Made by a program: the position numbers and the translations under genes. A DNA stretch of 32,826 nt from Candidatus Zixiibacteriota bacterium. Lineage in GTDB: Bacteria > Zixibacteria > MSB-5A5 > GN15 > FEB-12. The stretch is taken from the NCBI GenBank assembly GCA_034003725.1, contig JAVEYB010000019.1, forward strand, positions 1 to 32,826. Direction: 5' to 3'. The notes under the pieces were generated by a model. The model was not told where the DNA came from. It worked only from the letters and a program-made list of their open reading frames with translations, and searched no databases. This document shows positions 8,754-22,575 of the stretch, in pieces; positions within the stretch are counted from its first letter, which is position 1, and every line of letters starts with the position of its first letter.

Positions 8754-8861
8754 GGTACGCTCTCCCCGACCGGCTTGATGATATCTGAACCGCTTGCCTC
8801 GGCGGGTTCGGACCCGCGGGCGCGAGCAAAAATCCGCTGTATTCCTATGAGTTCTTTGCGC

Positions 8862-8911
8862 TTACGGGGAAATAGGTTCGTTTTGTCATTTTTCGGGGGC
8901 CCCCATTTTTT
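8862..8911 (-). repeat. 50-bp dispersed repeat, copy B (inverted)
   Basis: Reverse complement of copy A at 1015-1064, identical over 50 bp including the GGGGGCCCCC palindrome. The copies are about 7.8 kb apart in opposite orientation, both outside genes. Confidence 0.85.
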
Positions 8912-9261
8912 GCGCATTTGGGGTATGCCCAACGGTTGTGGAACCATAGGATGCCGGCACTCCCTGCGTGCGCGTGCAAATAGGGCGGGCTGACGACGAG
9001 AACACGATTTCTCCTTTCACCTCGGCCGGCATGAAAGACCTTCCGTGATTGCGTTTTGTCGGGCACCCGTCCGCCGCAGCGGGCGTCAGACCGACAGGGA
9101 TTATCGACACACTCACTAGAGCGGCATGCGCCACTTTTTCCATCGGTTCACACGCGAATGTGCGCACTTTTGCCACGTAAGGCTCACTTGTATGGCTGAG
9201 TCACTTGCGGGGCCGGGTCGGTTGACCGGAACCACTCGGGTGGATTGCACGATCTCTGTTG

Positions 9262-9374: not shown

Positions 9375-9935
9375 ATGACATTCCTTACCGAACTCTGGGC
9401 GCCGATTCTGCTTTCGGCAGTACTCGTATTCGTTATGAGTTCAATCATCCACATGGTGCTTCGGTACCACAAGAATGACTTTCGTCGGCTGAGCGATGAA
9501 ACCAGAATCCAGGAATCCCTTCGCGCTTTCAACATTCCCCCCGGAGACTACATGCTGCCGTGCGCCGGCGGCGCGGAAGCGATGAAAAGCGAGGAGTTTC
9601 AGGAGAAGGTGAAGAAGGGACCGATCGTGGTGATGACGGTCATGCCGGCGGGAGGGTTCGGCATGGGTAAAAGCCTGTTCCTCTGGTTTGTGTACTGCGT
9701 GATTGTCGGCTTCTTCGCCGCGTATATCGCCTACCATACGATGACACCGCAGACCCACTACCTGCAGGTGTTCAGGGTCGTGGGCACGGCGACATTCATG
9801 GGTTACTCGCTCGCGCTGTTACAGGGGGCGATATGGTACAAAAAGAGCTGTCGCAGTACGATGCTGTCGGTGTTTGACGGTTTGATTTACGCGCTGCTTA
9901 CGGCAGGGGTATTCGGCTGGCTCTGGCCGCGCTGA
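9375..9935 (+). CDS. conserved four-TM membrane protein
   Basis: A 186-residue protein with an N-terminal TM helix (about residues 8-28), a cytoplasmic or periplasmic segment of about 70 residues containing PPGDYMLPCAGG and MPAGGFGMGKSL, then three TM helices near 100-122, 131-150 and 165-184, ending GVFGWLWPR. I recall unnamed proteins of the same layout, with the same Pro/Gly-rich middle and the DGLIYALLTAGVFGWLWP end, in several environmental phyla, but know no function. An AAAGGAG ribosome-binding site lies ten bases upstream of the ATG. It appears monocistronic. Confidence 0.72.
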   Translation: MTFLTELWAPILLSAVLVFVMSSIIHMVLRYHKNDFRRLSDETRIQESLRAFNIPPGDYMLPCAGGAEAMKSEEFQEKVKKGPIVVMTVMPAGGFGMGKSLFLWFVYCVIVGFFAAYIAYHTMTPQTHYLQVFRVVGTATFMGYSLALLQGAIWYKKSCRSTMLSVFDGLIYALLTAGVFGWLWPR

Positions 9936-10101: not shown

Positions 10102-10285
10102 CTAGCGGCGCGGTGATGTGGTTCTGTCCTTGGTCACAATCCTGAAATCTCCCGACTCAAGTAATCCGTTCGACAGGTCAACCTCGAAGCGTTGTCGTGA
10201 GGGTTGGCGCTGCCACATGCAATCGAATGTGAGGGTGGAGTCGGTGATGCTTATCAACTCCACCGATTGGGCGCCCAGCAGGCAG
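10102..10285 (-). pseudogene. 3'-end duplicate of the neighbouring lipoprotein gene
   Basis: Read in reverse, this fragment encodes LLGAQSVELISITDS, TLTFDCMWQRQPSRQRFEV and DLSNGLLESGDFRIV, closely matching the last 50 residues of the lipoprotein encoded at 10476-11129 (LLGARSVDLVSITDS, TLTFDCMWQRQSSRQRFEV, DLSEGLLRPDDFRIV). DNA identity is roughly 80% by eye. Nothing corresponding to the lipoprotein's signal peptide or N-terminal domain is present; upstream the frame runs into palindromic repeats. It is the remains of a second copy. Confidence 0.8.
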
Positions 10286-10298
10286 ATCAGATAGCCCC

Positions 10299-10321
10299 GG
10301 GTGGGCCACCCTTTGGGTGGG
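10299..10321 (+). repeat. GGGTGGGCCACCC-type hairpin repeat, copy 1
   Basis: A GC-rich quasi-palindrome of 23 bp: GGGTGGGCCACCC, then TTTGGGTGGG. Two further copies bound the element at 11218-11357. Confidence 0.75.
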
Positions 10322-10331
10322 CTTCTCTTCT

Positions 10332-10429
10332 GGCGGGTTCGAGGACGGACCCGCCCTACAAATCTGAACAAGATCACGCCCGTACCGAACGGGTATTCGT
10401 AGCTGGGCGGGCCCGTGTTGGGACCCGCC
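10332..10429 (+). repeat. pair of GGCGGG...CCCGCC hairpin repeats
   Basis: Two adjacent inverted repeats: GGCGGGT (10332-10338) with ACCCGCC (10349-10355), and GGCGGG (10406-10411) with CCCGCC (10424-10429). Similar units appear at 8802-8817 and near 32735-32760, the latter sharing the GCCCTACAA edge. They look like dispersed intergenic palindromes rather than terminators, as no T-run follows. Confidence 0.6.
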
Positions 10430-10475
10430 GTTTGTAGTCGATACGTCAGCCGATGCCCTGGATCATCGTACGCGC

Positions 10476-11129
10476 TTAGCGTTTCTCCTCCTCCCCCACG
10501 ATCCGAAAGTCATCCGGCCTCAGCAGGCCCTCGGAAAGGTCAACCTCGAACCGTTGTCGCGAGGATTGCCGCTGCCACATGCAGTCGAATGTGAGGGTGG
10601 AATCGGTGATGCTCACGAGGTCAACCGATCGGGCGCCAAGCAGGACTATCACTCGGAGATGTGTGTCGGCGGCTGAGTGCGTTGTCACAAACATAACATC
10701 GGAGCGGCTCTTTTTCCGTCCCACCGAGGCGTACTTCAGATTATTCTCGATTGACGAGATACCGTCGACGTCACCGGACATGAGCGAGCGACCAACTTCA
10801 ACGAACAGCGTGCCGGTATGTTCATTCATGAGATTCGTCAGACACGCGACGATACCGTCGCCGCGTGTTCGTATGTTTGTAACAACCAAGATGGAATCAG
10901 CCAAGATGGCTATGGAAGCGTCGTCATCGCGCTGTACGCTGAGTATCCGACGGTCGACAGATTGATTGTCTCTCGCCGTAGCAATCACGTCGATATGGTC
11001 TTCGGGGAACAACGTATACCGTACTTCGACGCGGAAGTTGCTGGATTCCGCGAAGTTGTTGACGCGACTGCACGAGCAAACGGCAAGCAATACAAGGGAG
11101 AGCAACCAGAAAAAACGTGCGACTCTCAT
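10476..11129 (-). CDS. exported lipoprotein, putative Rhs-linked partner
   Basis: A 217-residue protein with a strong signal sequence, MRVARFFWLLSLVLLAVCSC, ending in Cys residues at 18 and 20 that could be lipidated. The mature part is acidic and beta-rich with no motif I recognise. A GAGGAG ribosome-binding site precedes the ATG. It is the last gene in the reverse-strand run of Rhs tips and small exported proteins, directly after an Rhs remnant, in the position that an immunity gene occupies after a toxin tip. Its 3' end is duplicated at 10102-10285. The immunity role is inferred from position and export only. Confidence 0.6.
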   Translation of the reverse strand: MRVARFFWLLSLVLLAVCSCSRVNNFAESSNFRVEVRYTLFPEDHIDVIATARDNQSVDRRILSVQRDDDASIAILADSILVVTNIRTRGDGIVACLTNLMNEHTGTLFVEVGRSLMSGDVDGISSIENNLKYASVGRKKSRSDVMFVTTHSAADTHLRVIVLLGARSVDLVSITDSTLTFDCMWQRQSSRQRFEVDLSEGLLRPDDFRIVGEEEKR

Positions 11130-11217
11130 CGTGACGTCTCTCCTCTACTTGTTTCTCATATGATAGCATTCTATGCCTCGAAGTGTCCAGTAGATAACCT
11201 TGTACGCATCAAGGGTC

Positions 11218-11357
11218 GGGTGGCCCACCCTTTGGGTGGGTTACTTCTTCCATCTCGCCGGGGTCACAAAATCGTCCATCGCAATCGGGACATCTCGACT
11301 CCCCTCATACCAGTTGTAACTCGACCCGAGGATACCCACCCAGAGGGTGGGCCACCC
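11218..11357. mobile_element. 140-bp MITE-like element with inverted-repeat ends
   Basis: The ends, 11218-11241 and the reverse complement of 11334-11357, are 24 bp each and match at 23 positions; both contain the GGGTGGCCCACCC hairpin. The 92-bp interior has no gene of its own. It sits exactly where the third Rhs remnant stops resembling Rhs (after YAEYVS), so it appears inserted into, or to have captured, the tip gene. No clear target-site duplication is visible. Confidence 0.5.
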
Positions 11358-11444
11358 AGTCGAGACATACTCCGCGTACAGCTCACCGTAGGGGTAGTAC
11401 TTCGCCGACCATCGTATGGTCTCTATCGGATGTACATCAAGCAC
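11241..11444 (-). pseudogene. Rhs tip remnant (third cassette)
   Basis: An open frame of 67 codons begins MLDVHPIETIRWSAKYYPYG and continues ELYAEYVS, matching the segment before the Rhs boundary in the tip at 13163-14017 (VVWRGEYYPYGELYAEYVSA). The DNA of 11361-11401 is identical over 41 bp to 13910-13950. After YAEYVS the reading runs into the 140-bp repeat element and ends; the [12 protein letters not shown] segment, the DPxGL boundary and any toxin domain are missing. It overlaps the 3' end of the upstream gene by 22 bp. Confidence 0.75.
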
Positions 11445-11869
11445 GCGGCCTCATAGCGACTTTCTACAGTTTTCATGCCTGGGCCGCTAGCGGAGCTCTG
11501 GCTTCTCGCCGTTACATGAAGTAAAATGGCCCTAATTCCCGTACTCGAGACGTATGTATTGAATGGCGTGTAACGAATCCGGTAGAAGCCTTCCGGGAGG
11601 ATCTGCTTATTGAGTATCCACACAGTGTCAGTTTGTAAGGTGTCTGTGAAGTACAACTCCACAAGTGATGTTTCAGGCAGGTTGAACAGAGGTTCAACAA
11701 CCGGACTGTACGGCAGAGCATCAACACCTGTGAGCAAATATCCGTTGACTGCAGTATCGACAGGAATCTGCTCAATGCTATTCGGACCAAGTCGACTCTG
11801 GGGTGATGCAACGCCGGAAGTTATACACACTACTGCAAGGATTGCAACTATGATGAGTAGTTTCGTCAT
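11423..11869 (-). CDS. small exported protein after Rhs tip 2, candidate immunity protein
   Basis: A 148-residue protein with a signal peptide (MTKLLIIVAILAVVCITSGVA, cleavage near A21). The mature part is beta-rich and contains LPEGFYRIRY; the corresponding protein after tip 1 has LPSGQYRMEV in the same relative place, suggesting distant kinship. The ATG lies four bases past the tip-2 stop codon with AGGAG inside the tip gene, so the two are translationally coupled. The last residues (about from VESRYEAA on) are encoded within DNA that also reads as the third Rhs remnant, so the C-terminus may be altered by recombination. Confidence 0.6.
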   Translation of the reverse strand: MTKLLIIVAILAVVCITSGVASPQSRLGPNSIEQIPVDTAVNGYLLTGVDALPYSPVVEPLFNLPETSLVELYFTDTLQTDTVWILNKQILPEGFYRIRYTPFNTYVSSTGIRAILLHVTARSQSSASGPGMKTVESRYEAACLMYIR

Positions 11870-11873
11870 GATC

Positions 11874-12695
11874 TCATCTCCTGAAGTACATCGGATTGGG
11901 ACTCAACTTCGGCAATATCCTATATGCCGCCGCACCTCCGTGCGCGTTGTTTGGATCGGCAAAAAACTCGACTATCTGCGCATGCGTACTCACCGTCACT
12001 GGTTGCCCAGTGTTGATCCTATTCAAGTAGAGCGCTACGCCAGCTTGATTGCGGATAAGAAAAATCGCTGAATGGCCCTGAATATTGCTAGCATCAACAG
12101 GTCTTGGCTGACCAACATACTGATAGACTCCTTTCATGAAAAATACAGCAATATCCCCGGTTCTTGGCGAATCCTTCTGGGACATAGAGGAAATGTTGAG
12201 TTGACTCAGTTGTCTTTCGGTTTTCGTAGTACCCAATGCCTGAGCCACAAATCCATGGCAATTGGACTCGGTAGAGTTGCCACTAAACACATTATTACGA
12301 ATAGCGTACTCAGTGACATTGAAGGTTGTCTTACCCGGTTCAATCATGAACTTGGACATGTCATGGATATTATACTGCGTTGCGAATTCTTTCGCCATCA
12401 AACCCATTTGTCCATACAGACCAGCGAGGTCATCACCTTGCTCAGCCACAACTGAGACTGTATTGTTCTTAGCATTATACGTCGCAGTCCACAGACCAGT
12501 CGGGTCAATGAAGCTGTTTGGATCATTGCCAACATACGCATACAAGTTCATCCCGCCGGCCAGGCCGATGGGGTCGGCTTGGAGATAGCGGCCGGTGGTC
12601 GGATCGTAGTACCGATGCCAGTTGTAGTACAAACCGCTCTCCCGATCGTGCCACTGACCCGGAAACCGAAGATCATTGCTCGCAGAGCGAATCAC
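11874..12695 (-). CDS. orphan Rhs tip 2 with NlpC/P60-CHAP-like C-terminal domain
   Basis: A 273-residue open frame from a GTG (12693-12695). Residues 9-68 are the conserved end of an Rhs core ([39 protein letters not shown]) closing with the boundary motif [10 protein letters not shown]. The variable domain (69-273) carries [11 protein letters not shown] (Cys146), [10 protein letters not shown] (Gly-Asp 180-181) and GHSAIFL (His208), the Cys / GD / His order of NlpC/P60 and CHAP papain-fold peptidases or amidases. It is related over its first 80 residues to the domain of tip 1. The huge N-terminal Rhs shell is absent. It might be a silent cassette for recombination into a full rhs gene, or a stand-alone remnant. 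Enzyme assignment is by motif only. Confidence 0.65.
12537..12680 (-). repeat. Rhs-core homology block, copy in tip 2
   Basis: This 144-bp stretch aligns without gaps to 13763-13906, with about 18 differences by eye (near 87% identity). It encodes the conserved end of the Rhs core and is the likely substrate for recombination between tips. Confidence 0.85.
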
Positions 12696-12746
12696 CCTTC
12701 GTTGTTGAGTTAGCCGGCGTTCGAGCGACTATTCGCACTCTTTGCT

Positions 12747-13142
12747 CTACCTCATAATCACGAGTGTATCTATCCACAATCGGTCTTCGGCCCTTACCTC
12801 CATACGGTATTGTCCGCTGGGTAATGCGGGGAAGGGCAGGACTAGTTCTGAGGAGTCTCCTCTGGTTTCTCCTTGCCAGAAACCCGGCTGAGAGCGGAAC
12901 GCCAGCAGACAATCTCTATCAAGAATGTTATCAAACAGCACGAAGGACAGAGTTGTGTCGACCTTCCTCAATGTGACTGTCGTCCGTATTTGCGCTTCGG
13001 TTTGAATACAGTACTTGTCGTACCATGGATCTCCATTACGATCGCATGAAACGAAGACCATATTTGCAGATTGAGCCAGACCGATGTACCCCGCGACCGC
13101 AAGCAACACAAGGAGTGATGCTACCCATCCTATGATCTTCAT
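12747..13142 (-). CDS. small exported protein after Rhs tip 1, candidate immunity protein
   Basis: A 131-residue protein with a signal peptide (MKIIGWVASLLVLLAVAGYI followed by GLAQS; cleavage near residue 25). The mature domain is beta-rich, contains two possible disulfide Cys pairs (C33, C45 and a CLLAF cysteine), and ends LPFPALPSGQYRMEVR..., resembling a small immunoglobulin-like sandwich. GGAAGGGAG precedes the ATG, which follows the tip-1 stop codon by 20 bp. Its place immediately after a toxin-like Rhs tip, together with an export signal, fits a periplasmic immunity protein for a cell-wall-active toxin; that role is inferred. Confidence 0.6.
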   Translation of the reverse strand: MKIIGWVASLLVLLAVAGYIGLAQSANMVFVSCDRNGDPWYDKYCIQTEAQIRTTVTLRKVDTTLSFVLFDNILDRDCLLAFRSQPGFWQGETRGDSSELVLPFPALPSGQYRMEVRAEDRLWIDTLVIMR

Positions 13143-13162
13143 ATGGCGCTCCCTTCCTCGAG

Positions 13163-14017
13163 CTACGGGTTGATTATGTCCATGAAGTGCAGGGTAAAGC
13201 CTTCATAGAGCTGCTTCGTTTGCGTGTCCGTTTGCAGGCCGAGATCGGCCCCAGGACCGGGTCGTCCGAAGTAGTACTGTGTACCACTCAAACTCGTCAG
13301 CACGTAGATGGCCGCATGGTGCGTAACCCCGGATTTGTTCACCCAAGTGACTACGCTTCCCGGATGAGCAGCCTCGATTTCCTGAAATCCAAACACCTTT
13401 TGGATTTCCTCTGTGAATTTCATTCCTCCATGAATATGTGTCTCAGGCGAGAAAGCATCTGTTCCTGCTAGTGTAGATGAGAAGCAGTTCATGTTGTCGC
13501 TGGCATCGTTGAATTCCACACTCCTTAGAACGAATTCAGTAATTGAGAAGGTTGTGACACCTGGTACCACCTTGTATGTGTCGATGTCCTCTATCTTGTA
13601 GTAATTTGCGAACTCGCCCTTTGTCATGCTCAGTTGTGAATACAAGTTCTCCAGCCCGTCTCCATCTTCGGCGGTAACGTCTATGCTGCGGGTTGCAGGA
13701 TCCCACGTGGGAACCCAGAGACCAGTTGGATCGACTATCCCAAGGGGATTCCCTTTCGCATATGCATACAGGTTCATCCCGCCGGCCAGGCCGATGGGGT
13801 CGGACTGCAAGTAGCGGCCGGTCGAGGGATCGTAATACCGATGCCAATTGTAGTACAGGCCGCTCTCCCGGTCGTGCCACTGCCCCGGAAACCTAATCTC
13901 ATTGCTGGCCGAGACATACTCCGCGTACAGCTCACCGTAGGGGTAGTACTCCCCGCGCCAGACGACCGTCCGCTCCCGATCCGTGAGTGATGATTCTACT
14001 GCCTGAACTGCCAACAA
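13163..14017 (-). CDS. orphan Rhs tip 1 with NlpC/P60-like C-terminal domain
   Basis: A 284-residue open frame. The start is uncertain: TTG at 14015-14017 follows GGGGGG, and the frame is open about 25 codons further. Residues 18-100 match the end of an Rhs core ([40 protein letters not shown]) and close with PLGIVDPTGL, the PxxxxDPxGL boundary. The variable domain (101-284) has NCFSSTLAG (Cys178), HPGSVVTW (Gly220-Ser221 replacing Gly-Asp) and HHAAIYV (His233/234), an NlpC/P60-like order. Its first part (GLENLYSQLS..EFANYYKI..PGVTTFSITEF) is clearly related to tip 2 ([28 protein letters not shown]). The Rhs shell is missing. It heads a same-strand run of cassettes ending at 10476. Confidence 0.65.
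   Translation of the reverse strand: MLAVQAVESSLTDRERTVVWRGEYYPYGELYAEYVSASNEIRFPGQWHDRESGLYYNWHRYYDPSTGRYLQSDPIGLAGGMNLYAYAKGNPLGIVDPTGLWVPTWDPATRSIDVTAEDGDGLENLYSQLSMTKGEFANYYKIEDIDTYKVVPGVTTFSITEFVLRSVEFNDASDNMNCFSSTLAGTDAFSPETHIHGGMKFTEEIQKVFGFQEIEAAHPGSVVTWVNKSGVTHHAAIYVLTSLSGTQYYFGRPGPGADLGLQTDTQTKQLYEGFTLHFMDIINP
13763..13906 (-). repeat. Rhs-core homology block, copy in tip 1
   Basis: Partner of 12537-12680 (about 87% identity, ungapped by eye). The adjacent 13910-13950 is identical to 11361-11401 in the third, degraded tip, so the three tips share overlapping parts of one ancestral core. Confidence 0.85.
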
Positions 14018-14117
14018 ATTCCCCCCAGTGTTTTTCTTTATATCGGCGCTCTGAAGTTTCGGATTGAGTCCACTCTCTTATACTCCGCGGTCTCAGGATA
14101 TCGCCGGTTCAAGGCAC

Positions 14118-14152
14118 AAAAAAGCCCCGTCCGCCGAGGCGGACAGGGCTTT
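14118..14152 (-). terminator. intrinsic terminator of the 885-aa protein gene
   Basis: Arms AAAGCCCCGTCCGCC (14121-14135) and GGCGGACAGGGCTTT (14138-14152) pair with one mismatch; on the reverse strand the hairpin is followed by six U (14118-14123). It lies 23 bp past the stop codon and separates this gene from the Rhs run downstream. Confidence 0.9.
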
Positions 14153-14174
14153 GTGGTCGAACGGTAAACCTGAA

Positions 14175-16832
14175 TTACTTCAGGAGAACCATCTTCTTTG
14201 TCTGCGAGAACTGATCGGCCGTCAGGCGATAGAAGTACACACCCGAGGCGTTGTCACCGGCTTCCCAGACAACCGACTGCACACCGGCTTCAGCGTGACC
14301 GCTGAACGAAGCTACTTCCTGACCGGTCACGTTGTAGACCTTCAGGCTGTAGTTCGAGGCCACCGGCAGAGCGAACTCGATTGTGGTGGACGGGTTGAAC
14401 GGGTTCGGGTAGTTCTGCATGAGGGCGAACTCACTCGGCAGGACGTTCGCGTGCACCGGGACGCCGTCGACCGTGGCCAGTTCGGCCACGAGGATGTCGG
14501 CGTTACCGATGTTCAGGAACGAGCCGGAGAAGCTCTCCATCGAGCCGGAATTCTCAAACGGAGCATAGACGAGCACCCGGGTGGTGAGACCATCGGAGTG
14601 ATACGCCATCTCCATGTTGGAGACGAGCAGTGTCGGATGGACATTGCCGCGCAGTTCGATGAAGGCCGCACCGATCTGCAGATCGTTGCTGACGGACAGG
14701 TTGCCGTTCATGGTGCCGAGGTTGGCATCAATCGGGTTAACCTTCGCGATCGGCGAGTTCGGATACGGGACAGCGTCACCAACGATGACACGGATCAGGT
14801 ACACGAGGTCGGCGACCGAGAGGGTCAGACCGTCGGCGTTCACGTCGGAAGCAGCGGTAGCGGCTTCGATCGGGTACTGAACGTCGAGATCGGCAAACGC
14901 GGCATTACCAAAGATGAAGTAGTTGGTAAAGATAACCGCGTCAGCAATCGTGTACGCGAGACCGTCCTGGTTGATGTCGCCGCGATCGTCGATATCGCCG
15001 GCGCAGATGATGTCGACACCACCGTTGAGGAAGTCAAGCATGCGGATGGGCAGCGGCTTGCCGGGCTCGTTGACGAGACAGGCATCCGGGGCACCGGCCG
15101 CACCGGGGAAGGTCGGGGTGTCGATATTCTCGGAGTAGGAATCCGGGAAATCAAGGTTGATGTCGCCGACTCCGCCACCGATGTAGTTCCAAACCGAGTT
15201 CTCGACATAGAGGTACTGACCGCTGACGTTGGACATGGTGTTGTCGCCACAGTCGTACCAGAAGAACTTGATCGGAACGAACTGGCACTCGAGGTTCCGG
15301 TCATTGCTGACCAGGAAGCGCAGCAGGGCCAGGGTGGAATCGTTCGCCGGAGTCTCGGAGCCTTCAGCCACGGTGCCAAAGCAGGTCGGGTGGCTCGGGC
15401 CGTCGTTGTACTCGGCGATAGCAACCAGGCGTACCATACCGGTCGGGCAGCCCGTACCGCAGTTGCCGAACGGACCGGTCCGATAGGTGAAGTATTCCCA
15501 GCCGCACTCTTCAAGCATGCCGCCTTCGGTCGCACCGAGGAAGGTCAGCGCCGTAGCGTCATACGAGAGGAGCAGGTTATAACCGCCAATAGCGATACTG
15601 GCGTCGAAGTACACCGGGACGATGACTACCTGACCCTGGAACACGCCGTCGCCGTCCGGGCCGTGCAGCTTATCGATAGCTACGACAGCCTTGTTGACGA
15701 GCACGGTCGTAGTGATCGTGTCGGCATTGGACGGGCTGCAGGGATCACAGGTATTAGCGCCGTCGTTCACCGTGAAGGTGATCACGAATTCGCCCACATA
15801 GGCGTCATCGAACGCTTCCGTCTGCCAGCTGAACTCACCACTGTTGTTAATGGTGGGCATATTGCCCGGGCTCGGGACGATGCTCAGGACATCGAAATCG
15901 AGCATGTTCGGGCCGTCATCGGGATCACTGGCAGTGACAGTACCGGTAACGAGGTCACCCCAGACCCACGACGGCTGATCCTGCGTGGCAGACTCAGCAA
16001 CCGGCGGCTCATTGGTGACACAGATGGTAAAGGTCCTCGTCGCGAAAGCGCCGCAGGCATCTGTTACCTTGATCTCAACTTCATGCTCACAGACATCGGC
16101 GCCGGACGGAGTCCACGTGATCCGGCCGGTCGATGAATTGACATTCAGGGCAGCCGGACCGCTGACCTTGCTGTAGGTCAGGGTTTCGCAGCCGTTCGCG
16201 ATATCGGCATCGGCGCCGACCGCGTCGTACTGGAACAGGTCACCCCAGGCCACCGTACCATCCGGGATAGCGGCCAGCGTCGGAGCACTGTTGACATACG
16301 TCACGGTACCCGCGTTGACAGCCACCGGCAGGATATCAAACGTGTTCGCATCGACGAACTGCGTCTGAACCGTTACCGGCAACGGATAGTCAAAAATGCC
16401 GCCCGCAAAGCCGACCGTGCCCAAGCACAGGTCCTGTGTCGAGAAGGACACACTGGCAACCACATGGGTGCCGGCCGCAAGAACGACATCGGTCGCCTCA
16501 ATGAGCAGAGCAGCAAGACGAATCGTATCAGGGGCCACGCCATCAGCCTGAGAGGCGTCGATTATACGGGTGCCGAGCTCGGTAAAGGCCGGATCCCAGT
16601 CGACATTGATAGCGTCAAGATACGCGCCGCCGCCGGTCGAGCTGATAACCATCACGATCTCAACCGCGGCCACGTCAACCGTATTTTCTACGGTGACGTT
16701 CAGCACGTAATCGTTACAACGAGACACGTTCAGATTCTGATACGTGACCTCGTTGGCCAACGAATACGAGAACGCAAATGCCACTAAAAAGGAGATCAGC
16801 AGCAAAGAAGTTAACGTTCTTTTTTGCATCAT
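14175..16832 (-). CDS. large secreted protein with cohesin-like, dockerin-like and type IX (Por) sorting domains
   Basis: An 885-residue exported protein. Order: signal peptide (1-27, ending SYSLA); a cohesin-like beta domain (about 28-175); two Ig-like domains (about 180-275 and 280-378, the second with DPDDGPN..F.V....N.SGEF.W and VNDGANT); a second cohesin-like domain (about 385-555); a pair of dockerin-like calcium loops (GDINQDG near 618 and SDVNADG near 664); and a C-terminal sorting domain (about 800-885) with QNYPNPFNPST, LKVYNVTGQEV and SGVYFYRL..., ending KKMVLLK. The sorting domain directs translocation by the type IX system and surface attachment. AGGAG precedes the first of two tandem ATG codons. 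A strong promoter lies about 390 bp upstream. Function is probably structural or adhesive; no catalytic domain is visible. Confidence 0.88.
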   Translation of the reverse strand: MMQKRTLTSLLLISFLVAFAFSYSLANEVTYQNLNVSRCNDYVLNVTVENTVDVAAVEIVMVISSTGGGAYLDAINVDWDPAFTELGTRIIDASQADGVAPDTIRLAALLIEATDVVLAAGTHVVASVSFSTQDLCLGTVGFAGGIFDYPLPVTVQTQFVDANTFDILPVAVNAGTVTYVNSAPTLAAIPDGTVAWGDLFQYDAVGADADIANGCETLTYSKVSGPAALNVNSSTGRITWTPSGADVCEHEVEIKVTDACGAFATRTFTICVTNEPPVAESATQDQPSWVWGDLVTGTVTASDPDDGPNMLDFDVLSIVPSPGNMPTINNSGEFSWQTEAFDDAYVGEFVITFTVNDGANTCDPCSPSNADTITTTVLVNKAVVAIDKLHGPDGDGVFQGQVVIVPVYFDASIAIGGYNLLLSYDATALTFLGATEGGMLEECGWEYFTYRTGPFGNCGTGCPTGMVRLVAIAEYNDGPSHPTCFGTVAEGSETPANDSTLALLRFLVSNDRNLECQFVPIKFFWYDCGDNTMSNVSGQYLYVENSVWNYIGGGVGDINLDFPDSYSENIDTPTFPGAAGAPDACLVNEPGKPLPIRMLDFLNGGVDIICAGDIDDRGDINQDGLAYTIADAVIFTNYFIFGNAAFADLDVQYPIEAATAASDVNADGLTLSVADLVYLIRVIVGDAVPYPNSPIAKVNPIDANLGTMNGNLSVSNDLQIGAAFIELRGNVHPTLLVSNMEMAYHSDGLTTRVLVYAPFENSGSMESFSGSFLNIGNADILVAELATVDGVPVHANVLPSEFALMQNYPNPFNPSTTIEFALPVASNYSLKVYNVTGQEVASFSGHAEAGVQSVVWEAGDNASGVYFYRLTADQFSQTKKMVLLK

Positions 16833-17225
16833 TTAAGCTCCTTTTACCTCAGTCAAAAGAGTTGCGGTCACCTCATGCAAACGGATTGTCCGCGAGGTTG
16901 ACCGAAAAAGGTGGTAATTCCACTCTCCTCCCACCTGGCAGGGAAATCGGTTCCTGCTCGTCGCTAACCTTCATGCCACCGAGATGTCAAAATGAAGTAC
17001 CTCAGAGGCTCGGACAGGCACGAAGTCGTTTTTTAATGGGAGAATGATGGAAGGAACTTGCAAAACCAATCAGACATATTTGTCCGACTAAGTTTCAAAG
17101 CTCGATAATTAAACCAGTAACCAGAGACTGAGCAAATGTAACGATATATTGTCTATACCGTTAAAAGGTGCGCCAGATTCAAGAAAGAAGTTTTTTTCAC
17201 ACAACTACTTTCCCTAGACGCCTAA
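16833..17225 (-). other. long 5' leader of the 885-aa protein gene
   Basis: No coding sequence is apparent. Given the promoter at 17226-17254, transcription would start near 17219 and produce about 387 nt of leader. It contains at least one hairpin followed by a U-run, AGGTGG...CCACCT with TTTTT on the reverse strand (around 16902-16938), which could be an attenuator. I could not match any riboswitch class. Confidence 0.4.
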
Positions 17226-17254
17226 ATGATAACCCCCTACCCCGCTTTTGTCAA
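17226..17254 (-). promoter_or_regulatory. sigma70 promoter of the 885-aa protein gene
   Basis: On the reverse strand, consensus TTGACA (17249-17254) and TATCAT (17226-17231) with a 17-bp spacer. The bases just before the -35 (TTTCTC) are the same as at the promoter of the 1042-aa exported protein (27374-27401). Confidence 0.6.
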
Positions 17255-17331
17255 GAGAAATGTCGCAAAATCCGCCTTAATCTGCTTGTGTGACACCGGC
17301 TGCCGGCTGTCATGGATTGTCAACATGCGCT

Positions 17332-17353
17332 GGGGGATATCTGGATATCCCCC
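17332..17353 (-). terminator. hairpin after the barrel gene, possible weak terminator
   Basis: A perfect inverted repeat GGGGGATATC (17332-17341) / GATATCCCCC (17344-17353) lies 9 bp past the stop codon of the gene at 17363. No U-run follows, so it may be an mRNA-stabilising or weak termination structure. Confidence 0.4.
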
Positions 17354-17362
17354 CCCGGTGCC

Positions 17363-18625
17363 CTAAAAGTCGTAGGTCAGGCTGGACGACAGGAGGTAAA
17401 GGCGGTTGTTCTCCTGATCCTGGGAGTGCCACTCCCACTCGGCCGAAAAGAGCACGTTCAGCCCCAATCCGTTGATCAGGCGGGCATCACCAAGGACAGT
17501 CAGCCGATTAAACCAGAAATCGGACTGAAAGTCATCTTCGAGACGAACATCGCGAATCCCGCCCGACCACTCCACGGCTGCATACATCGAACGGGCGGAC
17601 ATATAGTCGATATCGAGCCGAAGTGCATACTCGTTGTAGTCCGCGGCGCTGGCCAGATCGCTTGGACCTTCGGTAAGAAACTCCACCTGCGGGCCGGCCC
17701 AGACATAGACACCCCGGCTGGTCAAGCCAGCCTGGGCGTATAGTCTGGTCCGCATATAATCGACATTCACCAGATCGGAGTCCGAGAACGAGCTGTATTC
17801 GAGATCGATTTCCTGACGGGTCAGCCACGTTTTCGTGAGTTCAACCTTATGATTTCCAAGCAGTTCAAGCCTCGTGTAGTCGTCCTCATCATCGGGCTGG
17901 TTATAGTCTTTGCGCTCGATTCGGGCTGTAAGATCCACGGCGCCATTGTCGTAGTAGGCCATGACATTTGATTCGAGGCCGTAGGTCACGTAATCCAGGC
18001 GGGACGAGTCCGGAACAGTCCGAGAACCGACAAAGATCATCCCGGTAATACTGGAAAAGTCATCGAAAGTACGAATAAATCCGGAAGTAGCGAGCAGGCG
18101 AAACTGATTGTAACTAAGATCTCCGGCGGAGTCAAAATCGACGAAATTTGCTCGAATCGACCAGAAACTGGTCCAGGCCTGCCCGAGCGCGAAGTCGGCC
18201 CGGGCGCGGGCGGATCCGTAGAGGAATTCCTCGCCGGCTTCAGCGTCGCCGCGCACGTCTTTTCTGACTTCAAGCTCGCTGTTGAACTGGAGACGGTGCA
18301 GGCCGAGCCGGAGCCGACTATCGGCGTAGAACTTGGCTCGGAAGAGGTCGCGGGTCTGGTCCAGCTGTGTTGTCAGATCGAGCCTGCCGTTATCGAGCGG
18401 GTGCAGTCCGAGTCTGACAAAGGCTTTTGGTTCATCGAGATACGTAGTACTTTGGGTGAGCGAAGCATCAAGCGAGTCGATCCCGATCAGGGTCAGAGAA
18501 TCGAAAAAAAACGATTGTGAGATAACATCATAGCCGACTCCGGCGCGGATATCGGCCGCCCTTGCCGGAGTCGGGGTAAACTGGGTTAGCAGGATGAGAA
18601 AAATCGCCGCGGCACAACTTTTCAC
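17363..18625 (-). CDS. outer-membrane beta-barrel protein
   Basis: A 420-residue protein with a signal peptide (MKSCAAAIFLILLTQFTPTP then ARA; cleavage near residue 23). The mature chain is almost wholly amphipathic beta-strands of 9-12 residues with aromatic girdles (for example RLDLTTQLDQTRDLFRAKFY, SFWSIRANFVDFDS, RLYLLSSSLTYDF) and ends in a C-terminal Phe, the BAM-recognition signature of outer-membrane barrels. Length suggests 16-18 strands. I do not recognise a specific porin family. It follows the helical-repeat protein gene by 42 bp on the same strand, and together they look like an envelope operon. The stop codon is at 17363-17365. Confidence 0.75.
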   Translation of the reverse strand: MKSCAAAIFLILLTQFTPTPARAADIRAGVGYDVISQSFFFDSLTLIGIDSLDASLTQSTTYLDEPKAFVRLGLHPLDNGRLDLTTQLDQTRDLFRAKFYADSRLRLGLHRLQFNSELEVRKDVRGDAEAGEEFLYGSARARADFALGQAWTSFWSIRANFVDFDSAGDLSYNQFRLLATSGFIRTFDDFSSITGMIFVGSRTVPDSSRLDYVTYGLESNVMAYYDNGAVDLTARIERKDYNQPDDEDDYTRLELLGNHKVELTKTWLTRQEIDLEYSSFSDSDLVNVDYMRTRLYAQAGLTSRGVYVWAGPQVEFLTEGPSDLASAADYNEYALRLDIDYMSARSMYAAVEWSGGIRDVRLEDDFQSDFWFNRLTVLGDARLINGLGLNVLFSAEWEWHSQDQENNRLYLLSSSLTYDF

Positions 18626-18667
18626 CTGGACCTCAAGCGAGGACTCCCCCGCCGCTCCTCTGTGTAA

Positions 18668-19711
18668 CTAGTTGTTGATACCCAGCAGTCTACGGGCCTG
18701 CTGCAGGGTGAGGTAGGCGGCTTGCAGCGCTGCAGCGGCTGTTTCGGGTGAGTCGTTTTCCATATGCTCCCGGGCAAGCCGGAGCTGTTCTTTGGTTTGC
18801 TGGAGCATGCGCGAAGCATCGGTGCTGCCCTCAGCCTGTTCGGTCAGGCGGTCGGTTTCAGCGAGAAGGCGTTCATACCGGCGCTGCAGCTGGTCGGCTC
18901 CCTGACAGTCCCGAACGGCGCGCAGGGCGAACTCCCGGGACCGCTTGAGCGCGTCAAGGGCCTTATCCGACTGCCCCCGGCCGCTGAGATCATCGGACAG
19001 CTCGAGCATTCGCCTCGCCTGCTCCATGTTACGCAGGGCATCGCCAGATTCGCAGCCGGCGGTGGCGTCAGCGGCGCCGGCCAGAAAGTCAACGACAGCT
19101 TCCCGTCGACGTTCGTGCGCGGCATCGCCGCTCCGTTCCAGTCCGGCGGCCTGCATCAGCTTGGCGGCGGTTTGCTCGACCTGATCGGCCAGTTTGAGGG
19201 CCGGCTTGTACTGGCGGGCCCGGTAGAACTCCCAGGCGCGCTCCAGGTTTGTCCGGGCGGTTTCATACAAGGCACGGAGAACGGGTCGATCGCCCTCGGC
19301 GAGCACCTCGGCCACCCGGTCCAGCATTTCGGCGGCACGTTCCAGCCTTCGTACAACCGCTCCTTCATACTGCTCGACCTGGCGCGAGAGGCTCAGCGCG
19401 ACCTTGCCGCGTTCGCGGGCTTGTTTGGTCAGTGCAGCGGCTACCAGCGGCCGGCTTTCTCTGAAGGCGTCCCAGGCATCCCGCTGGAATTCACGGGCCT
19501 GCTCCAGCGCCAGCTCTGCCAGAGGGACATTGGCCTGTGCCACGGCGTCGGCGATTCGATCAAGCGCCTCGTCGGTGCGCTCCAGCTCCCGCTCCAGACG
19601 CATCGTCTGGTCGGACATCGGAGGACCCTGCGACAGGACCGGGGACCAAAGTATCAACACTATCGCCAGGGCGAGCACCACTATCGGACTACGTGATTTA
19701 CCAATCGTCAT
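18668..19711 (-). CDS. periplasmic helical-repeat protein
   Basis: A 347-residue protein with a signal peptide (MTIGKSRSPIVVLALAIVLI then LWSPVLS; cleavage near residue 27). The mature protein is nearly all amphipathic alpha-helix, rich in Arg, Glu, Ala and Leu. Repeats of about 45 residues recur, each with an A-x-x-x-L-x-x-A-R/E-x-x-x-x-x-A-W/A pattern (ELALEQAREFQRDAWDAF; LYETARTNLERAWEFY; MEQARRMLELSDD; LQQTKEQLRLAREHM; LQAAYLTLQQARRL), giving a helical-hairpin or TPR-like solenoid. GAGGTGA precedes the ATG. It precedes the barrel gene in a two-gene operon, and follows a two-component regulator pair on the same strand, so it may form an envelope complex with the barrel. Function unknown. 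Confidence 0.7.
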   Translation of the reverse strand: MTIGKSRSPIVVLALAIVLILWSPVLSQGPPMSDQTMRLERELERTDEALDRIADAVAQANVPLAELALEQAREFQRDAWDAFRESRPLVAAALTKQARERGKVALSLSRQVEQYEGAVVRRLERAAEMLDRVAEVLAEGDRPVLRALYETARTNLERAWEFYRARQYKPALKLADQVEQTAAKLMQAAGLERSGDAAHERRREAVVDFLAGAADATAGCESGDALRNMEQARRMLELSDDLSGRGQSDKALDALKRSREFALRAVRDCQGADQLQRRYERLLAETDRLTEQAEGSTDASRMLQQTKEQLRLAREHMENDSPETAAAALQAAYLTLQQARRLLGINN

Positions 19712-19921
19712 AAACCATCACCTCGTTTACTTATGACCGGATCAAAAGCCGTGCCCGCCCGCGACTATGCTGTAACTTGTTGATGCACAATACATACCCA
19801 TCAACCAAACGATCCCCGGCCTGATGGTGGTGTACCACCCGGTACGGAATCTGTCCCTGACGGCCCACTTTCGGTCATGCTCCCAGACATGCTCCTGCGC
19901 CGGCTCCGTGCTCCGCCCGGC

Positions 19922-21247
19922 TTACGGCTTGATTCCGTGCACCTTCATGCGGCTGTACAGGCGGCGTCGCGTGATCTTCAGCAGCCGGGCAGCCTCCGTT
20001 TTATTGCCGCCCGTTTTCGCCAACGCATCGAGAATCATCTCCCGTTCCCGGTTCTCCAGACCGCCCGATCCGCTGCCGGTGGCCGAGCCGATCGGCGCGT
20101 TATCGAGATCAAGCGAAAACTCGTCGGGCGTCAGCGGCTCTCCCCCGGCCAGGATCACAGCTCTTTCGAGGACATTGCGCAGTTCCCGAACATTACCGGG
20201 CCAGTCGTACTGGAGCAGGATCTCCTGGACATCGGCGGTAAGCTCCGGGTACCGGTATCCCTGCGTTTCGAGAAAGCGCCCGGCCAGTTCAATGACATCG
20301 CGGCCGCGCTCTGCTAAAGGCGGCAGGGGAATAGGGAACACGTTCAGCCGGAAGTACAAGTCCTCGCGGAAACCGCCGGAAGCGATTTCCTCTTTCAGAT
20401 TTCTATTGGTAGCGGCGACCACCCGGACATCAATAGTGATCGTGTCGACACCGCCCACGCGGACGAGCGCGCGTTCTTCGAGCACCCGAAGCAACTTGGT
20501 TTGCATGCCGGGCGACATTTCCGCGATTTCGTCGAGGAAGATCGTTCCTCCTTCGGCGAGTTCAAACCGTCCCCGCTTTCGCTCTGCAGCCCCGGTGAAC
20601 GCGCCTTTTTCGTGGCCGAACAACTCCGACTCGAGCAAAGTCTCGGTGATGGCGGCGCAGTTCACGGCGATAAACGGGCCGGCGGCGCGTTTCGACTTCT
20701 CGTGAATCCGTCGCGCCACCAGTTCCTTCCCGGTGCCCGACCGCCCGGTCAGAAGCACGGTGGCCTCGGTGGGCGCCACCTGGTCGATCATGGTGCGGAC
20801 CTTCCGGATTGCAGGCGATGTCCCGATCAGATCGGTCGACTGTGCGCTGCCGAGCTCCGCCTTGTAATGGCCGCTGAGCGCCTGCAGTTTCTGTTGTTTG
20901 ACGAGCTTGTCCACTAACAGGGACAGCTCGTCGAGCGAGAACGGCTTGATAAGATAGTCCGCCGCCCCCTGTTTCATGGCCGAAACCGCCGACTCGACCG
21001 TACCGTACGCCGTCATGATGATGACGTCGATCCCGCCACGCGCCAGCGCCCGCTCGAGAATCTGCATTCCCGAAATCTCCGGCATCGACAGGTCCGTGAT
21101 GACAATGTCAAACGAGTGCCGGTCGATCAGGTCGAGCGCCTCTTTGGGCCGGGTAGTCGTCTGGACCGAGTGCCCATCGTCTTCGAGCGTCCCGCAGACC
21201 AGCGAGGTCATTTTCGGTTCGTCGTCTACTACAAGAATTCGTGCCAT
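19922..21247 (-). CDS. NtrC-family sigma54-dependent response regulator
   Basis: A 441-residue regulator with the complete NtrC architecture: receiver domain (1-120, phospho-acceptor D52 in VITDLSMPE, Thr79 and Lys101), AAA+ domain (about 138-375) with Walker A GRSGTGKE (168-175), the sigma54-contacting GAFTGA loop (215-220), Walker B TIFLDE (235-240) and the arginine-finger region, and a Fis-type helix-turn-helix (about 398-441, NKTEAARLLKITRRRLYSRM). It would activate sigma54 promoters after phosphorylation by the kinase encoded just upstream. The ATG at 21245-21247 is two bases past the kinase stop codon; the longer open frame upstream is the kinase in another frame. The following envelope operon (19711 onward) is a plausible target. 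Confidence 0.95.
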   Translation of the reverse strand: MARILVVDDEPKMTSLVCGTLEDDGHSVQTTTRPKEALDLIDRHSFDIVITDLSMPEISGMQILERALARGGIDVIIMTAYGTVESAVSAMKQGAADYLIKPFSLDELSLLVDKLVKQQKLQALSGHYKAELGSAQSTDLIGTSPAIRKVRTMIDQVAPTEATVLLTGRSGTGKELVARRIHEKSKRAAGPFIAVNCAAITETLLESELFGHEKGAFTGAAERKRGRFELAEGGTIFLDEIAEMSPGMQTKLLRVLEERALVRVGGVDTITIDVRVVAATNRNLKEEIASGGFREDLYFRLNVFPIPLPPLAERGRDVIELAGRFLETQGYRYPELTADVQEILLQYDWPGNVRELRNVLERAVILAGGEPLTPDEFSLDLDNAPIGSATGSGSGGLENREREMILDALAKTGGNKTEAARLLKITRRRLYSRMKVHGIKP

Positions 21248-21249
21248 AG

Positions 21250-22575
21250 TTATGTTGTCGGTTTTTTCGGCAGGCGGATAGTCACGCAACTGCCGGAGCC
21301 CACGGTGCTTTCGATATCGAGGGCGCCGCCCATATCGGTAATGATTCGGCGGCTTATGTACAGACCGAGACCGGAGCCGGTCTGTTTGGTCGTATAAAAC
21401 GGGTCGAACAACCGCTTCAGCCCGGCACGATCGATCCCCGGACCCCGATCGACTACACGGAATATCAGAGTGCGGTCGTCCGATGACAGGTCGATCCCAA
21501 CCGATACGGGAAGCCCGGCGTCGAGACAGGCGTCGACTCCGTTGATCAACAGATTGAGCAGTACTTGACGAAGCGAGCGACGGTACCCGGTCAGTTGGAT
21601 CCCGGCGGGAACGTTGCCCAGCCACTCGATCGGCGTGTCGTCATAGCGCTGGAGCACGTGCGACCGAAGCGAGGCGACCAGTTCGGCGGGATCAAACGCT
21701 TCGGGGGACTCCGCGGCCAGAATGGACGTGCGGTTGCCGGCAAACTCGAGATATCCGGAGACAATCTGGTTGAGGCGGTCGACTTCTTCGATGATGTACT
21801 GAGACTCTTCGGATGGACTTTTCCGCGCGATCCGTTCGGCCGAACCGCGGATAATCATCATTGGATTTTTGATCTCGTGCGCCACGACGGAAACCATCCG
21901 CCCGAGGTAAGTTTCGGTTTCGGCCAGAAAGAGCTTTCGTTCCGCCGCATTGATCTTGCGCTGCAGGCCGAGGAAAACGGCTCCAAGCGCGATTCCTCCG
22001 ACAAGCGACAGGACGGTGGAGTAGTAGAGATTGCGCCGAAGCTCCCCGAGGGAGTCAAAGTAATCGACGCTCGCTTCGAGACCGAGCACGCCGACCAGCA
22101 GCCGGTCCGAATCATACAGCGGGGCGAACGCCGACTTGAGGTAGACCGCCCCGGACCGGTAGGTGGCGCTGACCAGGGCATGCGACGGCTCGCCGAACAG
22201 TACGGAATCGATACAGGGTCCGTTGAGGACGGTAAGAAAATACAGGCTGTCGGTCTCCAGCGTGGTGCTGGCCAGGTAACGGTAACGATCGTCGAGGATA
22301 AACGCCTCGGCCAGCGAGTCCGATCCCCGCACGGCTTCGAGAATGGAGACAACCTGCAAAAACGAACGGGCGTCGTCGAGCATCAGACCGTCGATAAGCG
22401 CCGGATCAATAGACGCGGCGGCCGTCTCGGCCACGGCGCGGAGTTTGCGCGAAAGCTGGTCCTCGAGCAGCGCTTCGGTTCGGCGGTAGGACAACCACCA
22501 CGCCAGATTGACGAGGACGATCAGAAGAGCCGTGAAGACCGCGATGGCAACAAACCGTTTCGATCCGCCAGACAT
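21250..22575 (-). CDS. membrane sensor histidine kinase
   Basis: A 441-residue kinase: TM1 (about 7-29), an extracytoplasmic sensor of about 150 residues with Cache-like features (RLLVGVLGLEASVDYFDSL), TM2 (about 185-205), then a dimerisation/phosphotransfer domain with H233 in VVAHEIKNPMM and a HATPase domain with N box LLNLLINGVDA, G1 DRGPGI, F box LFDPFYTTK and G2 TGSGLGLYI, ending GSGSCVTIRLPKK. It presumably phosphorylates the NtrC-type regulator two bases downstream. The start at 22573-22575 (MSGGSKRFVAIAV) gives a normal N-terminus; it lacks a clear ribosome-binding site, and the frame remains open upstream into the divergent thioesterase gene, so the start is the least certain part. 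Confidence 0.92.
   Translation of the reverse strand: MSGGSKRFVAIAVFTALLIVLVNLAWWLSYRRTEALLEDQLSRKLRAVAETAAASIDPALIDGLMLDDARSFLQVVSILEAVRGSDSLAEAFILDDRYRYLASTTLETDSLYFLTVLNGPCIDSVLFGEPSHALVSATYRSGAVYLKSAFAPLYDSDRLLVGVLGLEASVDYFDSLGELRRNLYYSTVLSLVGGIALGAVFLGLQRKINAAERKLFLAETETYLGRMVSVVAHEIKNPMMIIRGSAERIARKSPSEESQYIIEEVDRLNQIVSGYLEFAGNRTSILAAESPEAFDPAELVASLRSHVLQRYDDTPIEWLGNVPAGIQLTGYRRSLRQVLLNLLINGVDACLDAGLPVSVGIDLSSDDRTLIFRVVDRGPGIDRAGLKRLFDPFYTTKQTGSGLGLYISRRIITDMGGALDIESTVGSGSCVTIRLPKKPTT

Follow-up and report, generated by a model that had tools for sequence, protein, structure and literature searches.

Orphan arrays of Rhs tips and immunity genes are already known (PMC3150448, PMC3967940), and internal use of an orphan has been described (PMC7043789). 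In experiments, orphan C-terminal (CT) genes mostly lack initiation signals, whereas expression is possible for orphan immunity genes (PMC3150448). The usual view takes orphan Rhs tips as spare ends for an adjoining full-length gene. Here we describe an array on the minus strand of contig JAVEYB010000019.1 (positions 10,102 to 14,017) from a Candidatus Zixiibacteriota genome, in which a small exported protein stands behind each of three truncated Rhs tips. The array is made of orphan Rhs-CT/immunity cassettes, a known kind; what differs from the known orphan arrays is that three genomes of the genus are without any shell and that a headless start, one lacking the residues upstream of the core, is common to members with exchanged toxins. 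Our preferred reading, held with moderate confidence, is that the array persists without a delivery shell, the exported immunity genes being its working part and the tips a silent reserve.

Genomes and searches

The window analyzed is the whole of the contig (C19, 32,826 nt) of G000, a 3.73-Mb genome in 35 contigs that is 99.5% complete. G001 and G002 are members of the same genus, and G020, G031, G060, and similarly numbered genomes are other Zixibacteria. The assemblies of G000 and G001 are metagenome-type. The order survey comprised 80 genomes and the phylum survey 132 Zixibacteria genomes. Rhs cores were assigned using TIGR03696 (Rhs_assc_core) with its family cut-off at 32.5 bits. A literature search on Zixibacteria toxins returned nothing relevant.

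Headless Rhs cores and the missing shell

From 14017 downwards on the minus strand, the order is tip1, a partner of 131 amino acids (aa), tip2, a 148-aa partner, a remnant of tip3, an inverted-repeat element, a 217-aa lipoprotein, and a copy of the lipoprotein end. The array is internal to the contig, with intact flanks and no contig edge. Tip1 (13163-14017, minus strand, as are the genes of the array below; 284 aa) has a TTG start behind GGGGGG and joins a headless Rhs core to a toxin-like C-terminal domain (domain 1); it was delimited by the open reading frame (ORF), TIGR03696, NF041261, and the start common with G001. Tip2 (11874-12695, 273 aa) starts with GTG and comprises the 3' part of a core and domain 2. 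The remnant of tip3 (11307-11423) is a 5' piece of a core that has lost its toxin domain and was recovered by protein search (E 1.9e-4). The reading frames of tip1, tip2, and the partners are all intact.

TIGR03696 matched tip1 at 13718-13948 (E 8.5e-29, 101.8 bits) and tip2 at 12492-12689 (E 8.5e-28, 98.6 bits). The tip1 core of ~90 residues (11-100) corresponds to 1171-1261 of the 1261 positions of NF041261 RHS_core and the tip2 core of ~64 residues (5-68) to 1201-1261; both reach the last residues of that family, and the cores are therefore genuine, though headless. DPTGL is present in both tips, and a variable C-terminal domain follows each core. Tip3 keeps ~17-20 core residues before it is cut by the inverted-repeat element. 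At the nucleotide level, tip1 and tip2 share 155 nt at 86% (E 2e-47), and tip1 and tip3 share 41 nt at 100% (13910-13950 = 11361-11401; E 2e-14). The best named match to the window Rhs core is JAHLKV010000002.1, a contig of G001, and the next are Candidatus Zixiibacteriota entries.

An initial annotation of this DNA had recognized three segments with the end of an Rhs core and a small exported protein behind each; ORFs are found where it placed them, and the TIGR03696 scores lie far over the cut-off, by ~65-70 bits. Its order of tip, partner, tip, partner, remnant, partner, and partner fragment agrees with the ORFs and with a 155-nt copy at 78% described below, and its third tip without a toxin domain is indeed a core stump cut by an inverted repeat. 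The truncation that it reported holds as well, with core lengths of ~90, ~64, and ~17-20 residues in place of its 83, 60, and about 25.

Its further inference, that the tips had been moved to a place behind a functioning rhs gene, is not supported locally. Using TIGR03696 and protein search, no Rhs core was found elsewhere in G000, with one weak match on C14 (E 0.02), and RHS_repeat PF05593 gave nothing at E ≤ 0.001 in the whole genome and noise at E ≤ 10 (best 0.28). As a control, the same search recovered the 1537-aa shell of G020 (E 1.5e-10). For YD repeats in G001 and G002, the PF05593 search gave noise alone. The initial annotation had named two findings that would speak against it, the absence of any YD-repeat protein and tips belonging to an unrelated family; there is no YD-repeat protein, yet the tips are truly Rhs. 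In homologous full-length genes, ~1300 open residues precede the core, reading ...DHLGTPLVLTNEYGSIRWKARYYPFGEL, and the homology of tip1 starts at about LTDRERTVVWRGEYYPYGEL.

The corresponding site in related genomes

The neighboring genes and their order are conserved in G001 (blastn 13758-21589, 76%). A single tip occupies the corresponding place there and agrees with tip1 in leader, start (GGGGGAATYTGTTGGCAGTTCAG), and core; the C-terminal domain and partner behind that core are unrelated to those in the window, and no shell lies upstream of this headless tip. In G002, both flanking genes stand side by side, and the site is empty of tips. The comparison of related genomes that the initial annotation had proposed for its displaced tips gave a different toxin in one genome and an empty site in the other, with a headless start that is inherited rather than freshly displaced. 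Being common to G000 and G001, the headless start predates their split, and from the different toxin behind the same start in G001 it follows that at least one of the two has exchanged its toxin end since then.

Between G000 and G001, the headless core has 85 shared codons without indels, a ratio of nonsynonymous to synonymous substitution rates (dN/dS) of 0.08-0.10, and a dS of 0.50-0.52, which is similar to that of the neighboring 885-aa gene (0.52-0.75 by method). Changes in the core number 9.5 at nonsynonymous and 22.5 at synonymous sites (p 7e-8). We read this pattern in the codons as selection acting on the core, and not as proof of a headless protein in use. A recombination breakpoint between the codons YVS and ASN, suggested by divergence (90.7% versus 84.7%), was rejected for too few sites.

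On the tip1 coordinate, the tip2 core begins at 13913 and the tip3 piece ends at 13910; given this coincidence, the two may come from one core that was split at 13910/13913. At 10365-10395 (plus strand) lies a 31-nt relic, the 3' end of a response-regulator gene. It agrees with the end of the G001 gene at 30/31 and less well with the end of the gene in G000 itself, and in G001, the response-regulator gene ends ~50 nt from the last partner. From this match and spacing, the G000 array probably once adjoined the response-regulator gene or arrived with it from a relative. A 186-aa membrane protein (window 9375-9935, plus strand) lies between the response regulator and the array and was not seen at the site in G001 or G002; it may have arrived with the rearrangement that left the relic at 10365.

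Partners as putative immunity proteins

The 131-aa partner (12747-13142) follows tip1 after 20 nt, starts with MKIIGWVASLLVLLAVAGYIGLAQS, and has the purine-rich GGAAGGGAG before its ATG. The 148-aa partner (11423-11869) follows tip2 after 4 nt, starts with MTKLLIIVAILAVVCITSGVAS, and has AGGAG before its ATG. Both are putative immunity proteins. The 217-aa lipoprotein (10476-11129), a putative orphan immunity protein, starts with MRVARFFWLLSLVLLAVCSC and is preceded by GAGGAG before its ATG; a degenerate 155-nt copy of its gene's 3' end (10497-10651), 78% identical, forms the partner fragment at 10135-10289. The starts of the first two are signal-peptide-like and that of the third is lipobox-like, as judged by eye. 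Shine-Dalgarno or purine-rich sites thus precede the ATG of all three partners, and with such good ribosome-binding sites, the partners are probably the part working today. No usable Shine-Dalgarno sequence was seen before the GTG of tip2 or for tip3. Tip1 has no signal peptide in G000 or in G001, from which we infer that the tips are not exported. A promoter-like site precedes the lipoprotein at 11189-11160, and the promoter count in the array is no higher than in shuffles.

In the phylum survey, Rhs cores were found in 45 of the 132 genomes. A total of 103 tips were collected, 75 with an adjacent partner, and 56 of these 75 partners are exported or membrane proteins (export class by a hydropathy rule, with two window partners set as exported by eye). 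Among 3403 tip pairs, which are not fully independent and include some automatic partner calls, the toxin domains are homologous in 47 and the partners in 16, and 15 of these 16 fall among the 47; shuffling gave 0.22 such coincidences on average and at most 3 in 5000 shuffles. The export class agrees in 38 of the 47 pairs with homologous toxins, against 27.4 expected, and 43 of 5000 shuffles reach 38. The 86-aa partner adjacent to the G001 tip has homologs in G020, where they are the partners of homologous tips, and behind the G001 partner is an Imm26-like gene (Pfam E 0.0025, below the cut-off). Most likely, these small exported proteins confer immunity to toxins that act outside the cytoplasm. 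Together, the core homology, the exported partner behind the toxin domain, and the phylum-wide linkage bear out the initial annotation in its view of the loci as orphan Rhs tip/immunity-type cassettes.

Several related tips were seen during the survey. Tips with a core followed by (F/W)DDP... DMRHFLVxG occur in G020, G031, and G060 (L047:134-939, L048:1089-2629, and L052 near 8900) with a homologous exported partner behind each, and the partner of the G020 tip of this type matches BamE (Pfam E 3.9e-5). Homologous tips with GGDRY ... GARAVDF ... HIHVALP, M15-peptidase-like by eye, have homologous exported partners in two distant families (L049:314-1694 and L109:5613-6950). In four genomes, a signal peptide is fused directly to the final stretch of an Rhs core, 28-35 residues long, and a C-terminal domain (L112:3505-4269 [G001 C3:51089], G038 C66:7609, G031 C4:226196, and G079 C348:4870), the core tail being RWISVDPxAxKYPSxSPYVYxxNNPLxYIDPDG, and an exported partner stands behind three of the four. 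From their sequence, these look like Rhs toxins in which the shell is replaced by a signal peptide. The single-contig genome G095 was dropped as proof of shell-free Rhs, parts of its frames reading N.

Toxin domains

The C-terminal domains 1 and 2 are 26-28% identical. By eye, both have N-C-(HG)F and (G/P)-x-V/I-x-x-W/F, then H-(S/A)-A-I, and are NlpC/P60-like. In hhalign, the window toxin domains did not score above shuffled controls against NlpC/P60. An indirect link runs through residues 115-166 of domain 1, which are similar to the C-terminal domain in a full-length Rhs from a Poribacteria metagenome-assembled genome (MAG) (L096; E 0.004 among the compared loci, 6e-7 as a pair); this Poribacteria domain has a weak NLPC_P60 Pfam match (E 0.009), and its nine best PDB matches are of the NlpC/P60 type (E 0.02-0.33). 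Judged by these resemblances, the chances that the window toxin domains are NlpC/P60-like cell-wall peptidases appear about even, and a cell-wall enzyme as toxin would fit the exported partners. AlphaFold2 single-sequence models of domains 1 and 2 were discarded (predicted local distance difference test scores of 35 and 33). The Poribacteria Rhs (L096:2-4738) has a signal-peptide-like start and, by eye, the look of an N-terminal papain-like peptidase of the bacteriocin-processing type, and is followed by a HEAT-repeat protein with a hydrophobic N-terminus.

Other features of the window

The terminator of the upstream 885-aa secreted-protein gene (14124-14140, minus strand) forms the upstream boundary of the array and is kept in G001 and G002. 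The element that interrupts the tip3 remnant is an inverted repeat of the GGGTGGCCCACCC type (11218-11357) with 24-nt arms at 11218-11241 and 11334-11357. The palindromic repeat CGGGTGGSCCACCCTTTGGGTGGG occurs at 10298-10326 and 11217-11245; its core, the palindrome CCACCCTTTGGGTGG, was counted 7 times in G000, 15 in G001, and 0 in G002, with a control of 0, and the repeat is possibly a repetitive extragenic palindromic (REP)-like element. Elsewhere in the window are a 65-nt inverted copy, 94% identical (1014-1078 versus 8848-8912), and a 400-nt tandem duplication (76%) within the gene of a 1057-aa secreted protein (25367-25765 and 25775-26173).

Interpretation of the array

Under the preferred reading of a shell-less array, tip1 would occupy a headless slot consisting of a TTG start behind a G-rich leader, ~90 core residues, and a toxin domain. 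This slot would have been inherited in the genus while its toxin/partner end was exchanged, presumably by recombination in the short core, and tip2 and the tip3 remnant would be older cassettes pushed behind tip1 without initiation signals. The tips as they stand would not be exported and would serve as reserve or be waste, and the exported partners would guard the periplasm against Sec-exported full-length Rhs proteins of relatives with such tips. Immunity function, a periplasmic target, silent tips, and recombination as the route of the swap are parts of this scheme that we infer.

Several results weigh against it. The window partners had no family match in PHROGs, NCBIfam, or Pfam, and the toxin domains had none in Pfam; the profile searches of C-terminal domains and partners that the initial annotation had suggested thus gave no known family. 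No close relative of either toxin domain was found in the order, in the phylum, in a species-genome pattern scan, or among plasmids and viral contigs. The toxin/partner linkage holds for other tips of the phylum and the G001 tip, the window toxin domains being without relatives close enough. Silent changes are in excess chiefly in the 3' part of the core (p 1.7e-7) and not in the leader, the first 15 codons (p 0.32), and the selection signal of the core could stem from time spent inside shells elsewhere. The shell could also be absent merely from the MAG.

On that last account, this would be an ordinary Rhs locus whose shell dropped out during assembly or binning, or occurs in some cells only, and the picture of the initial annotation would be exact. 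Metagenome-type assemblies and the frequent position of relatives' Rhs arrays at contig ends (G031 C7, C4, and C1; G039 C133) make such a loss conceivable, and marker completeness is uninformative on accessory genes such as an rhs shell. We nevertheless consider it unlikely, with the array lying between intact flanks inside its contig behind a conserved upstream terminator, no core or YD fragment elsewhere in G000, and a headless start without a shell upstream found independently in G001. That the array is a decaying fossil, its shell deleted long ago and all of its pieces drifting unexpressed, is rather more unlikely. The tip3 stump cut by an inverted repeat, the partner fragment and response-regulator relic behind it, and the lack of a promoter excess are what a fossil would leave, but tip1, tip2, and the partners are intact frames, the partners retain their signal-peptide-like starts and Shine-Dalgarno sequences, and two species share 85 core codons without indels at a dS of ~0.5 and a dN/dS of ~0.1.

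Tip1 might instead be a working mini-Rhs, exported by some other route or used in the cell as a toxin-antitoxin pair, given a start region and frame conserved in two species, a core under purifying selection, the four tips with their own signal peptide that bring shell-less delivery close within the phylum, and the internal expression of a Salmonella orphan Rhs (PMC7043789). Tip1 lacks a signal peptide in either species, exported partners would be unable to neutralize a cytosolic toxin, and a cell-wall enzyme would be inert in the cytosol, which together make this very unlikely. It is possible, though doubtful, that the genus keeps a fixed headless Rhs slot that takes exchangeable toxin/immunity ends shell-free, with the mini-Rhs made and used; if true, this slot and the signal-peptide-fused tails of the four genomes would together make up a branch of Rhs toxins that does without a shell.

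Comparison with known systems

An array kept and exchanged between species without a full-length gene would separate the benefit of spare toxins from that of spare immunity, and its shell-less persistence would favor immunity or shell-free use. Through the survey, the rule linking toxin type to partner type reaches a phylum that has been little studied, most of the partners there being exported. Like the orphan rhs-CT/rhsI and cdiA-CT/cdiI modules (Poole et al. 2011, PMC3150448; Koskiniemi et al. 2014, PMC3967940), the window has truncated cores with a toxin after DPxGL, a small gene behind each tip, a tandem order, mostly tips without initiation signals, and expressible partners. Unlike in those modules, the genome assembly holds no full-length rhs, upstream or anywhere, the headless start is common to two species with different toxins, and the partners are exported rather than cytosolic. 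The Sec-exported full-length Rhs proteins of Zixibacteria (for example, G020 C18, a 1529-aa ORF in a 1537-aa open frame, and G060, a 1541-aa open frame) have a homologous core ending (WKARYYPFGEL ...) and, like the window tips, are followed by small exported partners, whereas the window tips lack the ~1300 shell residues and the signal peptide. The Salmonella orphan Rhs type II toxin-antitoxin (PMC7043789) likewise is a shell-less tip with its own partner and an internal start, but Salmonella has an adjacent full-length rhs, and the exported partners of the window misfit a cytosolic antitoxin. In the displaced immunity arrays of Vibrio cholerae type VI secretion (PMC5361080), successive displacement is similarly reported to strand old immunity genes; there, complete effector genes are displaced, and here, Rhs tips with core stubs.

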